Source of the DNA: an uncultured Curvibacter sp.
Lineage (GTDB): Bacteria; Pseudomonadota; Gammaproteobacteria; Burkholderiales; Burkholderiaceae
Direction of reading: 5' to 3'
DNA: 9,575 nt
Assembly (NCBI GenBank): GCA_946481355.1
Contig: CAMLNH010000078.1
Location: 1 to 9,575 of the forward strand
Shown here piece by piece: positions 4,103 through 9,575 of the stretch. Each line of letters opens with the position of its first letter. The first letter of the stretch is position 1. The position numbers and the translations under genes were made by a program. The notes under the pieces were generated by a model that saw nothing but the letters and a program-made list of their open reading frames with translations, searched no databases and was not told where the DNA came from.

Positions 4103-5284
4103 ATGCCTGATCCGCGTCCGATTCGTAGAAACGCCACTACTGCTCTTCGCAGCGCGCTTTTGCAGAAGCATAACTATCGCTGTGCCGTTTGCGGCCTGAG
4201 CAACGATGTGGTACCGCTTCATCTCGCCCACATTCAGCCGTTGTCACAGGGCGGTGACACGTCGCCTGAAAACCTGACTGTCCTATGTCCGAATTGCCAT
4301 GTTCAGTTCGACCGACAGCCCCGCGAACTTGAATTCACGACATTTCTGGGCTATCTGCTGACAGGGCACCCGGCATTCAGTCGTGTCGAACAAGAGCCCG
4401 TGATTGACGGTGATGAGCGTCTCCGTCCCGACATTCTGGCTATACGGCGAACTGCCAATGCAGAAGAGCGTCTCGTTATCGAATGCAAGACGTCTATTGC
4501 AATTGGGACGACACGTATCGACGCCGTTGCCCAACAACTTACGAGGTACGCGGCGCACATCCCTGGAGCGCGTCCAGTACTCGCAGTCCCGGCCACTCTG
4601 TCGGAGGAGCAACGAGCGGTTCTTAGTCGCGCGCATATTGAATTGTGGGATCTTCCCACCCTCGCAGATACTTTCCGCGATCAACTGCCGCCTGCTGCTC
4701 CAAGCTTCTACGGGAACGTTTTTTCGAACTACCTTCTACGGAACAAGCGTCCCACGCGCGAGGAAGAATTAATTTCCCGGCTTTCGGGGTGCCAAGCGGG
4801 AAAGCAAGATTGGCTGCTTTACCAGAAGCTCATAGGCGAAATACTAGAGCAGCTTTTTTTTCCGGTGCTAAATAAACCCATCTCAGAGCTCTCCGATAAG
4901 CCGAAGGTGAACCGGCGCGACTTCATTCTTCCCAACTATGCGGAGAGCGGCTTTTGGGCATTCTTGCGAGCCAAGTACCAAGCCGACTACATCGTTGTCG
5001 ACGCGAAGAACTATTCCAAGCGGGTCGGCAAGTCGGAGATTCTTCAGATCGCTAACTATCTCAAACCGCATGGGGCAGGTTTGTTCGGGCTCATCTGTTC
5101 TCGCCATGGAGGAGATGAAAGTGGTTGCGAGCACACGTTGAGGGAGCAATGGCTCGTCCACCAGAAGCTGATATTGGTGTTGAACGACGAAGACCTTTCG
5201 GCCATGCTCAGGGTCAAATCCGAAGGTCGTGGTGCGGAGGAGATTTTGGCTACGAAGATCGAAGCCTTTCGCCTATCCATGTAG
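4103..5284 (+). CDS. HNH nuclease with two PD-(D/E)xK-like domains (putative defence nuclease)
   Basis: This 393-residue protein is probably a cytosolic DNA nuclease. Residues 20-70 form a McrA-like HNH domain: zinc cysteines C27, C30, C62, C65, and H43, N57 and H66 in the H-N-H pattern (LAHIQPLSQGG, SPENL, CPNCH). Residues about 100-190 look like a restriction-endonuclease fold: D110 in RPD, E127-C-K129, then Q145-x3-Y149 and HIELWDLPTL (178-187). Residues about 215-390 repeat the logic: NRRD (D273), D300-A-K302 in YIVVDAKNY, Q315-x3-Y319, then GLFGLICSRHG. The catalytic-type residues of all three motif sets appear intact. The gene's base and codon use is much less GC-rich than its neighbours, indicating transfer. 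No methyltransferase, helicase or other partner is next to it, so it is probably a stand-alone restriction (type IV-like) or other anti-invader nuclease. Target and cofactor are unknown. It may be coupled to the leader frame at 4028-4099. Confidence 0.88.
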   Translation: MPDPRPIRRNATTALRSALLQKHNYRCAVCGLSNDVVPLHLAHIQPLSQGGDTSPENLTVLCPNCHVQFDRQPRELEFTTFLGYLLTGHPAFSRVEQEPVIDGDERLRPDILAIRRTANAEERLVIECKTSIAIGTTRIDAVAQQLTRYAAHIPGARPVLAVPATLSEEQRAVLSRAHIELWDLPTLADTFRDQLPPAAPSFYGNVFSNYLLRNKRPTREEELISRLSGCQAGKQDWLLYQKLIGEILEQLFFPVLNKPISELSDKPKVNRRDFILPNYAESGFWAFLRAKYQADYIVVDAKNYSKRVGKSEILQIANYLKPHGAGLFGLICSRHGGDESGCEHTLREQWLVHQKLILVLNDEDLSAMLRVKSEGRGAEEILATKIEAFRLSM

Positions 5285-5332: not shown

Positions 5333-5396
5333 ACGCAGCGGCATTGCGCGGCGAGCGTTCTGGTCAGCTAAGCCTCTGGACGCAATGCCGCTGCGT
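5333..5396. repeat. Perfect 16-base inverted repeat with 32-base loop between nuclease and ybeY
   Basis: ACGCAGCGGCATTGCG (5333-5348) and its exact reverse complement (5381-5396) flank a 32-base centre. The element lies between the ends of two convergent genes: the nuclease stops at 5284 and ybeY at 5414. A stem this long could protect or end both transcripts, but no T-run follows either arm, so it is not a textbook intrinsic terminator. It could also be a dispersed palindromic repeat or a recombination-type border of the inserted segment. No second copy of the arms was noticed elsewhere in the window. Confidence 0.8.
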
Positions 5397-7438: not shown

Positions 7439-7446
7439 AAGTAGCC

Positions 7447-7827
7447 ATGGCCTGGCTGGACAAGCTCAAGCAGCGGGCCCGCGTGCTCAAGGCCGAAACT
7501 CATGTGCTCTACTTCGCGGCGCGCCACCCCGGCACGCCCTGGTACGCCAAGCTGCTCGTGGCCGGCATCGTGGCCTACGCCTTCAGTCCGGTCGACCTGA
7601 TCCCGGATTTCATCCCCGTGCTGGGCCTGCTCGATGATCTGGTGCTGATCCCGCTGGGCATCTGGCTCGCCATCCGCCTGGTGCCGCCGGCCGTGCTGGC
7701 CGAATGCCGCTCGCGCGCGCAGGAGCGTGGCAAGCGGGTGAGCCGCGTGGCGGGTGCCGTGATCGTGGCAACCTGGCTGGCGCTGGCCGCCCTCGGCCTG
7801 TGGTGGGCCTGGCGTCTCTGGGGCTGA
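7447..7827 (+). CDS. YkvA-family (DUF1232) small membrane protein
   Basis: This 126-residue protein carries the DUF1232/YkvA signature YAFSPVDLIPDFIPVLGLLDDLVLIPLG (44-71). Hydrophobic stretches at about 34-48, 64-80 and 101-121 suggest two to three inner-membrane segments with basic ends (KQRAR at the N-terminus, RSRAQERGKRVSR at 88-100). The family's function is unknown. Its ATG is 8 bases after the ruvA stop with only a weak AAAAG ribosome site, so it is probably co-transcribed with ruvA and translated by coupling. It converges with the carbonic anhydrase gene with only 3 bases between the stops; a short palindrome (CTGAG-C-CTCAG, 7824-7834) overlaps both stop codons. Confidence 0.9.
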   Translation: MAWLDKLKQRARVLKAETHVLYFAARHPGTPWYAKLLVAGIVAYAFSPVDLIPDFIPVLGLLDDLVLIPLGIWLAIRLVPPAVLAECRSRAQERGKRVSRVAGAVIVATWLALAALGLWWAWRLWG

Positions 7828-7830
7828 GCC

Positions 7831-8952
7831 TCAGGGCCGCCCGCCGGGGGCGATGAGCAGGGCGTCGCGCACGGGCCGGCCGTTGAGCGACTGCACCGGG
7901 CGCGCGTTGTGCGGGTAGAGCTGGCTAAAAAGGCGCAGCTGCTCGGCGCTGATGCTGGCCGGCTGCTTGAGGACGAGCCAGAGCACACCCTCGGTGCAGG
8001 GCGGCGTGGTCAGCGAGCCCATGTACTGGTAGTAGCGCTGGTCGCGCGGCAGGATTTCGCCTACGTGGATCAGGTCTGCCGGCAGTGGCACATGGTCTTT
8101 CACGTCCAGCGGCATGTGTGTCCAGACCTTCTGGATCAGCGGGTTGGCCGGGCCTTCCTCCAGCAGCACGGCCAGCACGGCGAGCTGCCCCGTGTCGCTG
8201 CGGTGCACGAAGTGCGCCACCATGGGGTAGACGCGGCTGTTGATGCGCTCTTCCGCCGGGTGGTGGAAGTGGAACTGCTGCAGGCGGTAGGTCTGCCCGC
8301 GCACCGTGAGGCTGTTGTCGCCGCTGAGCTGGACCTCGATGGTGTGGCCGTTGTTCACCACCGTGCCCGAGCTGGGCATGTAGTTGAAGGCGATGGCCTC
8401 GGCCGGGCCCTTGAGCGTGTCGGCGTCGTCGATGGCGATGGGCGACTGGCGCTGCCCGCTGGCGCAGGTGGCGTATTCGGGCTTGAGCTGGGCCCAATGA
8501 CCCGGGCCGCCTTCGCCCTCATAACTCCAGGGGATGGCCTTGAAGACCGGTGCCGGCGGCTTGGCGGGGCGCGCCGGTGTGGCGCGCTGCTGGCGGATCA
8601 CGATGCCGGGTTCGCGCTGCAGATGGTCCACCGGGTTCAGTGGCGGCGGCGAGCCCGGGGCCAGGCCGCCGGCGGCGCTCTTGCGGTCGATCAGCAGGTT
8701 GAGCTTCTTCTTGGTCGGGTCGCCGCTGCTCATGGCATCGCGCAGCTGGGACTCGATGTCGATGCGTGTGCCCTCCACGCGTGCGGGGGGCGTCGCTGCC
8801 GCGGGCGCGGGCGCAGCGGCCGGTTCCGGTGTGGGCGCGGGTGTTGCGGGGGCCGGGTCCGCCGCGCGCACGGTGGCCACGCCGCCAGCCAGCAGCAGGG
8901 TCAGCAAGGCAAGGCGGGCCGTGGGCCAGGTGAGGCGGGGGCTTGTTGTCAT
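7831..8952 (-). CDS. Periplasmic alpha-class carbonic anhydrase with long Ala/Pro-rich N-terminal extension
   Basis: This 373-residue protein is an alpha-carbonic anhydrase, which interconverts CO2 and bicarbonate. The signal peptide is residues 1-30 (hydrophobic [15 protein letters not shown], then RA-A), so it is exported. Next come an Ala/Pro-rich tether (31-57), a charged segment (60-92, [10 protein letters not shown] and [11 protein letters not shown]) and a Pro-rich stretch to about 138. The catalytic domain spans about 140-373: [20 protein letters not shown], zinc ligands H228 and H230 (QFHFHHP) and H247 (AHFVH), acidic E234/E235, proton-shuttle-type H203 (NNGH) and [16 protein letters not shown] with the T199-type threonine. 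C163 and C319 are placed for the disulfide usual in bacterial enzymes. Typical bacterial alpha-CAs are near 250 residues, so the extension of about 110 is unusual. No clear Shine-Dalgarno precedes the ATG. All catalytic residues are present. Confidence 0.95.
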
Positions 8953-9015
8953 GGGCAGGGTGCGGGACTTCGTTCCTATGCTATCGGCAGAAAGAGGCTA
9001 TCACTTGAGGTCGGC

Positions 9016-9021
9016 TATAGT
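9016..9021 (+). promoter_or_regulatory. Possible -10 element for ruvB
   Basis: TATAGT matches the -10 consensus in 5 of 6 positions and lies 37 bases before the ruvB GTG, in the 106-base gap between the divergent carbonic anhydrase and ruvB genes. No acceptable -35 box stands 16-18 bases upstream, so this is weak. It would give ruvB its own promoter now that ruvA is not directly upstream. No strong promoter was seen for the carbonic anhydrase. Confidence 0.3.
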
Positions 9022-9058
9022 CGGAAAAGACACTGATTTCCCTCGAAAACACCCCGCC

Positions 9059-9575
9059 GTGAGCATCCAGACCGACGATTTTGAAATGCCCAGCGGCCCG
9101 CGCGTGGTTTCGGCCGCGCCCGTCTCGCCCGGCGAGGAGGCCATCGAACGCGCGCTGCGGCCCAAGCTGCTCGACGAGTACGTGGGCCAGGCCAAGGTGC
9201 GCGAGCAGCTGGAGATCTTCATCGGCGCGGCGCGCAAGCGCGAAGAGGCGCTGGACCACGTGCTGCTCTTCGGCCCGCCGGGTCTGGGCAAGACCACGCT
9301 CTCGCACATCATCGCGGCCGAGCTCGGCGTGAACCTGCGCCAGACCAGCGGCCCCGTGCTCGAAAAGCCCAAGGATCTGGCCGCGCTGCTGACCAATCTC
9401 GAGAAGAACGACGTTCTTTTCATCGACGAGATCCACCGCCTCTCGCCCGTGGTCGAGGAAATCCTCTACCCCGCGCTGGAGGACTACCAGATCGACATCA
9501 TGATCGGCGAAGGCCCTGCCGCGCGCAGCATCAAGCTCGACCTGCAGCCCTTCACCCTGGTGGGCGCCACCACGC
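9059..9575 (+). CDS. ruvB: Holliday junction DNA helicase motor subunit RuvB (N-terminal half, cut by window edge)
   Basis: The first 172 codons of RuvB, the AAA+ hexameric motor that drives branch migration with RuvA, are present; the frame runs off the right edge in the Sensor I region (LVGATT). The N-terminus, [20 protein letters not shown], then [19 protein letters not shown], is typical of betaproteobacterial RuvB. Walker A is GPPGLGKTT (72-80) and Walker B is [10 protein letters not shown] (119-128). GTG at 9059 is chosen because residues 2-9 fit the family and no start codon exists upstream in frame before the divergent gene; ATG at 9086 would lose 9 residues. No strong Shine-Dalgarno precedes the GTG. 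It does not share an operon with ruvA here. Confidence 0.97.

Follow-up and report, generated by a model that had tools for sequence, protein, structure and literature searches.

A predicted nuclease with HNH, Mrr-like and FokI-like domains in one chain, encoded in an uncultured Curvibacter species

What might a bacterium gain from a single protein that carries the residues of three nuclease active sites, and which of these sites would it need? The question is raised by the window examined here, a stretch of 9,575 nucleotides from an uncultured Curvibacter sp. (contig CAMLNH010000078.1), in which one gene encodes a protein of 393 residues. An initial annotation, made from the sequence alone, assigned an HNH set and two PD-(D/E)xK-like sets of residues to this chain, and all 17 residues it listed (those given in Table 1, apart from N303) are present at the positions claimed. 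Pfam matches and predicted structures further support the existence of three nuclease folds in the single chain, in the predicted order of an HNH zinc ribbon, an Mrr-like PD-(D/E)xK domain and a FokI/BspD6I-type domain. Judged by its sequence and structural models, the protein is a multi-domain restriction-type nuclease of a known general kind. Word searches of the open-access literature, judged mostly by titles, uncovered no title describing this architecture, and within the reach of those searches the domain order is apparently undescribed in print.

Table 1. Positions of the nuclease gene, its predicted domains and a nearby repeat within the window
Feature	Position	Strand	Details
Nuclease gene (HNH + Mrr-like + FokI-like)	4103..5284	+	ATG start, 393 amino acids
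HNH zinc-ribbon domain	4160..4318	+	Residues 20-72; C27, C30, C62, C65, H43, N57, H66
Mrr-like PD-(D/E)xK domain	4319..4687	+	Residues 73-195; D110, E127-x-K129, Q145, Y149
FokI/BspD6I-type cleavage domain	4745..5281	+	Residues 215-393; D273, D300-x-K302, N303, Q315, Y319
Inverted repeat downstream of the nuclease gene, beside ybeY	5333..5396		16-bp perfect arms, 5333-5348 and 5381-5396

The N-terminal domain matches Pfam HNH (PF01844) over residues 27-68 with a score of 41.4 bits against a gathering cut-off of 21.4 (E = 1.6e-10), and its site is intact in the window protein. The middle domain matches Mrr_cat (PF04471) over residues 110-189 (E = 6.5e-5), barely above the cut-off (23.5 versus 21 bits). 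As the initial annotation had supposed, predicted models (predicted local distance difference test scores of 84.4 and 94.4) place a restriction-endonuclease core in both the middle and C-terminal regions, wherein the location of the acidic and lysine residues was judged relative to the predicted strands. In the middle domain, D110 immediately precedes strand 111-116, while E127 lies within strand 121-128 and K129 right after it. In the C-terminal domain, D273 is found directly before strand 274-277, and D300 and K302 end strand 296-302. We therefore refine the labels of the initial annotation: on these models, the middle set is a predicted Mrr-like PD-(D/E)xK domain and the C-terminal set, previously given only a generic PD-(D/E)xK label, is a predicted FokI/BspD6I-type cleavage domain. 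The middle fold also resembles EndoMS in a structure search. NCBIfam models produced four matches, all below cut-off, the best being HNH-containing families, and a viral structure library gave 27 matches at E <= 0.001, with many among the 50 entries shown being named HNH or restriction endonuclease.

For the C-terminal domain, the predicted fold taken as a whole is that of the cleavage domains of the Type IIS enzymes FokI and BspD6I (for the latter, see PMC10853773). Identity to these domains is approximately 14%, the recognition domains of both enzymes are not present in the nuclease, and the two acids are separated by 27 residues that include a predicted helix, versus 17 residues in FokI. 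No Pfam family scores above cut-off in this half of the protein. Residues 224-386 match the PADLOC candidate defence protein PDC-M36A (PDLC04597; E = 8.5e-15), for which we found no paper. The match covers positions 289-448 of the 457 in the profile and leaves its N-terminal part unmatched, whereas a protein from another locus (L094) matches positions 9-432. The scan likewise marks the L092 protein, along with that of L094, as PDC-M36A-like, and L085 joins them through its likeness to L092. When 27 C-terminal domains, including those of six distant proteins, were aligned, six columns proved invariant, D273, K302 and N303 among them.

The manner in which the three sites are conserved is informative regarding which of them the protein is likely to need. 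A homologue search found 525 proteins, of which the best 120 were used, and two peptide patterns run against GTDB contigs yielded 43 loci in seven phyla. The resulting family alignment holds 157 sequences, namely the window protein, the 120 homologues and 36 proteins from the loci. D273, K302, Q315 and Y319 are each present in all 157, and D300 in all except one, where E is found. The middle site is nearly as constant (D110 in 156, E127 in 152 and K129 in 149), such that 157 members keep an intact FokI-like triad and 148 an intact Mrr-like triad. The four zinc cysteines are retained in 142, the full HNH site, defined as these cysteines with H43, N57 and either H or N at position 66, in 92, and all three sites together in 86. 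Mean pairwise identity over 2000 sampled pairs is 0.69 for the FokI-like domain, 0.51 for HNH and 0.47 for the Mrr-like domain.

Proteins outside this family extend the pattern. Those of loci L084, L091 and L093 carry Mrr_cat followed by the same C-terminal domain and have no HNH, and a search with the L091 protein recovered 115 relatives, with Mrr_cat in 106 and HNH in none according to the Pfam matches listed for them. Because these relatives combine the two domains without HNH, the pair of PD-(D/E)xK domains looks like the recurrent core. The proteins concerned (L084, L091, L093 and P0122-P0236) are approximately 330 residues long and, where their source names them, are mostly called ‘restriction endonuclease’ or ‘hypothetical protein’.

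The initial annotation had also proposed that one domain might be a degenerate recognition domain, and this idea fits HNH best. Among the 142 four-cysteine members, 41 have a replacement of H43, which is S, Y or F in 32 of these, and a homologue that is 83% identical to the window protein (P0003) has Y in this position. Since the first HNH histidine is held to activate water (PMC11037411), its loss should abolish HNH cutting. Of 156 alignment rows, 46 retain the four cysteines without an intact site (the 41 just noted, plus five with a change at residue 66), ten lack HNH and five have a partial domain. The ten derive from four Actinomycetota, two Bacillota, two Bacteroidota, one Pseudomonadota and one viral-labelled contig (L002). 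A quick tree built from the C-terminal domain, with weak support for 69 of its 147 inner branches and a meeting of several long ones, puts the changes of the HNH state between intact and lost at 20, at least seven of these being forced by the starred branches, versus a mean of approximately 40 after shuffling. The state of the Mrr-like site changes nine times on the same tree, in nine rows. In two Flavobacteriales loci (L025 and L028, both at 9692-10951), a 94-residue N-terminal segment of no recognized kind is found in place of HNH.

Given these characteristics, we lean slightly towards considering the protein a stand-alone DNA endonuclease that has spread horizontally and serves to restrict phage or plasmid DNA on entry. 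The FokI-like domain, which is never degenerate in the aligned set, would serve as the indispensable core cutter, and the rarely degenerate Mrr-like domain would contribute a second active site or a DNA clamp. In the manner of restriction enzymes that combine two sites in a single chain, one polypeptide, or a dimer formed via the FokI-like domains, might then cleave both strands. The HNH ribbon, often degenerate and sometimes absent, would chiefly grip or read DNA through its zinc module, its own cutting being optional. Because there is no methylase partner, distinguishing self from non-self would need some feature of the DNA, such as modification, ends or structure. A more specific proposal, wherein two unlike PD-(D/E)xK sites cut the two strands without a methylase, HNH is repeatedly becoming a zinc reader, and all three sites may still cut in the present protein, is offered only tentatively, and we consider it rather doubtful. 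If these ideas are correct, a compact single-gene defence nuclease of a new domain order would join the restriction enzymes, its relatives would document, as a natural series, how one nuclease domain repeatedly loses catalysis yet retains its zinc ligands, and how a methylase-less enzyme spares its host would become testable.

The genes near the relatives are consistent with a role in defence, to a degree that we regard as suggestive only. At E <= 1e-20, PADLOC detects 47 families in 134 proteins encoded within 6 kb of 14 loci (of 17 with an available genome; one locus without a match and two on short contigs were omitted), and five families (mad3, mad2, dGTPase, C3a214 and AriA) in 134 of 150 control proteins drawn from elsewhere on the same contigs. 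Drt8, KwaA, KwaB, HamB, PDC-M23B, PDC-M08B, mad3 and C3a206 are included among the 25 shown of the 47. The contrast is a hint, in family counts, that homologues sit in defence islands. When 131 genes lying no more than two positions from the nuclease were scanned with Pfam, 107 families were recovered; the 25 shown form a mixture, most of them being ordinary families.

The window itself does not qualify as a defence island. The nuclease gene sits between a LysR gene and ybeY, and the ten neighbours encode TctC, an AtuA ferredoxin-like protein, AtuA, LysR, YbeY, PhoH, RuvA, a DUF1232 protein, carbonic anhydrase and RuvB. In line with the initial annotation, there is no methylase among these ten, and their sole nucleoside triphosphatases (NTPases) are the housekeeping proteins PhoH and RuvB. 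That these genes are ordinary speaks against the defence role that had been assigned to the nuclease gene. A recurrent operon partner was also sought, by clustering five genes on each side from simple open reading frame (ORF) calls (BLASTP, 1e-5), and was rejected, given that no neighbour cluster occurs in more than three of 45 loci; some contigs end near the nuclease gene, where partners could be missed. Four clusters reach three loci, one of them being that of the clostridial loci L037, L042 and L044.

Several observations weigh against the restriction reading as set out above. Its FokI assignment depends on the fold and the register of the motifs, since the sequence link is weak: hhalign gives a probability of 1 and an E value of 0.051 over 13 columns, and the domain profile matches no PDB chain up to E = 10. 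FokI heads the Foldseek matches at an E value of just 1.6e-3, and RNA polymerase subunits follow closely. Overall conservation of HNH is no lower than that of the Mrr-like part, and the Mrr-like site is itself lost in up to nine of 157 members dispersed on the tree (L039 may be an alignment slip), and therefore is not strictly required everywhere. With regard to defence, a PADLOC scan of the ten window proteins gave weak matches of PhoH (PDC-S68, 7.8e-6) and RuvB (IetA and mad8, best 1.6e-6) alone. The PADLOC counts given above are of families rather than proteins, and a single reverse transcriptase or helicase can match numerous models; counted by protein, the visible difference is small, at approximately nine, if the reverse-transcriptase models represent one protein, versus at most six. 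A contrast at E <= 1e-5 between 131 proteins near the loci and 131 at least five genes away gave 264 and 155 families, respectively, with defence models in both sets, and was deemed too blunt, which is why the same-contig controls were added.

Among the other explanations for this protein, an enzyme that cuts modified DNA only, its reader being either the HNH ribbon or the Mrr-like domain, retains the most merit, and yet we judge it unlikely. Its stand-alone gene with no adjacent methylase and its Mrr-like domain would suit such an enzyme, and PDB sequence searches match its HNH domain to those of the modification-dependent McrA-type enzymes TagI and EcoKMcrA. However, the HNH domains of IscB, Cas9-like proteins and group II maturases are matched as well, and thus the similarity is to HNH in general. 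The nuclease also differs from McrA-type enzymes by its two additional PD-(D/E)xK domains and by the fact that Pfam finds no SRA, PUA, wH or sulphur-binding domain, a reader of some other kind being possible. From the initial interpretation of a type IV-like nuclease, the three predicted folds and the lack of a methylase among the ten window neighbours survive, whereas a defence role and dependence on modified DNA stand as conjecture.

A sequence-specific Type II enzyme of the IIT or IIS kind, with its methylase elsewhere in the genome or lost, appears quite improbable. A FokI/BspD6I-type domain together with a second, unlike catalytic domain is Type IIT anatomy, and in single-chain enzymes such as Mva1269I two unlike catalytic domains jointly cut both strands, according to PMC4081073. 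The nuclease is likewise predicted to combine two different catalytic domains in a single chain, and it differs by pairing Mrr-like and FokI-like domains and adding HNH. However, the same paper indicates that Type IIT enzymes generally come with two methylases, which is at odds with the absence of any from the ten window neighbours and of any recurrent neighbour from the 45 loci. We found nothing relevant in the recent literature on BsmI.

Slightly less probable again is an abortive-infection (suicide) nuclease that would damage the host's own DNA on being activated by an infection signal or by dimerization, given that no sensor or NTPase domain was detected in the chain by Pfam and no recurrent neighbour among the 45 loci is available to supply one. 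The possibility that this is no defence gene, being instead a selfish HNH element of the homing type or a nuclease of DNA repair, would accord with the frequent occurrence of HNH domains in mobile elements, the EndoMS-like middle fold and the ordinary neighbours that include ruvA and ruvB. The lack of a defence gene beside the nuclease slightly raised our estimate for it and lowered that for restriction. It is nevertheless very improbable, because HNH often loses its catalysis where the PD-(D/E)xK sites persist, and a patchy distribution speaks against core repair.

Horizontal spread, which we favour slightly as a part of the restriction reading, would be consistent with the composition and distribution of the gene. 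At third codon positions its GC content is 0.589, whereas seven flanking genes have values of 0.834-0.935. Of 300 genomes of one order, to which the window would belong judging by sequence similarity, one has a full-length relative, with two distant relatives besides; this sole positive, the Undibacterium genome of L022, served as the centre genome and was picked for having the gene, and so the fair count is zero of 299. The family of the genome nearest to the window by its phoH region has a full-length relative in none of 250 genomes, plus four distant ones. Five relatives keep ybeY-phoH, with approximately 7 kb on the ybeY side that holds neither the LysR gene nor the nuclease. A clean empty integration site could not be demonstrated, since the flank also differs in those five.

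Plasmid and phage records contain partial relatives only, with query coverage of at least 80% in none of 16 plasmid and none of four phage records. Full-length or nearly full-length relatives are found on viral-labelled contigs of IMG/VR (L001, 3517-4614, and L109, 8001-9158), of which L001 is missing the Mrr-like lysine. In the clostridial loci L037, L042 and L044, the ORF ends at a common point of the C-terminal domain with a near-identical short tail, and similarity continues past the ORF end in another frame; the shared end may reflect inherited decay or a common sequence feature.

The inverted repeat downstream of the nuclease gene may be a terminator-like hairpin or a scar, and none of 25 relative loci contains an exact match to 14-base words from either end of its arm region. 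Farther along the window, ruvA and ruvB are separated by the genes for the DUF1232 protein and an alpha-type carbonic anhydrase (7439-9060), and the corresponding ruvA and ruvB stretches of L063, L064, L066 and L070 are just 4 to 72 bases apart.
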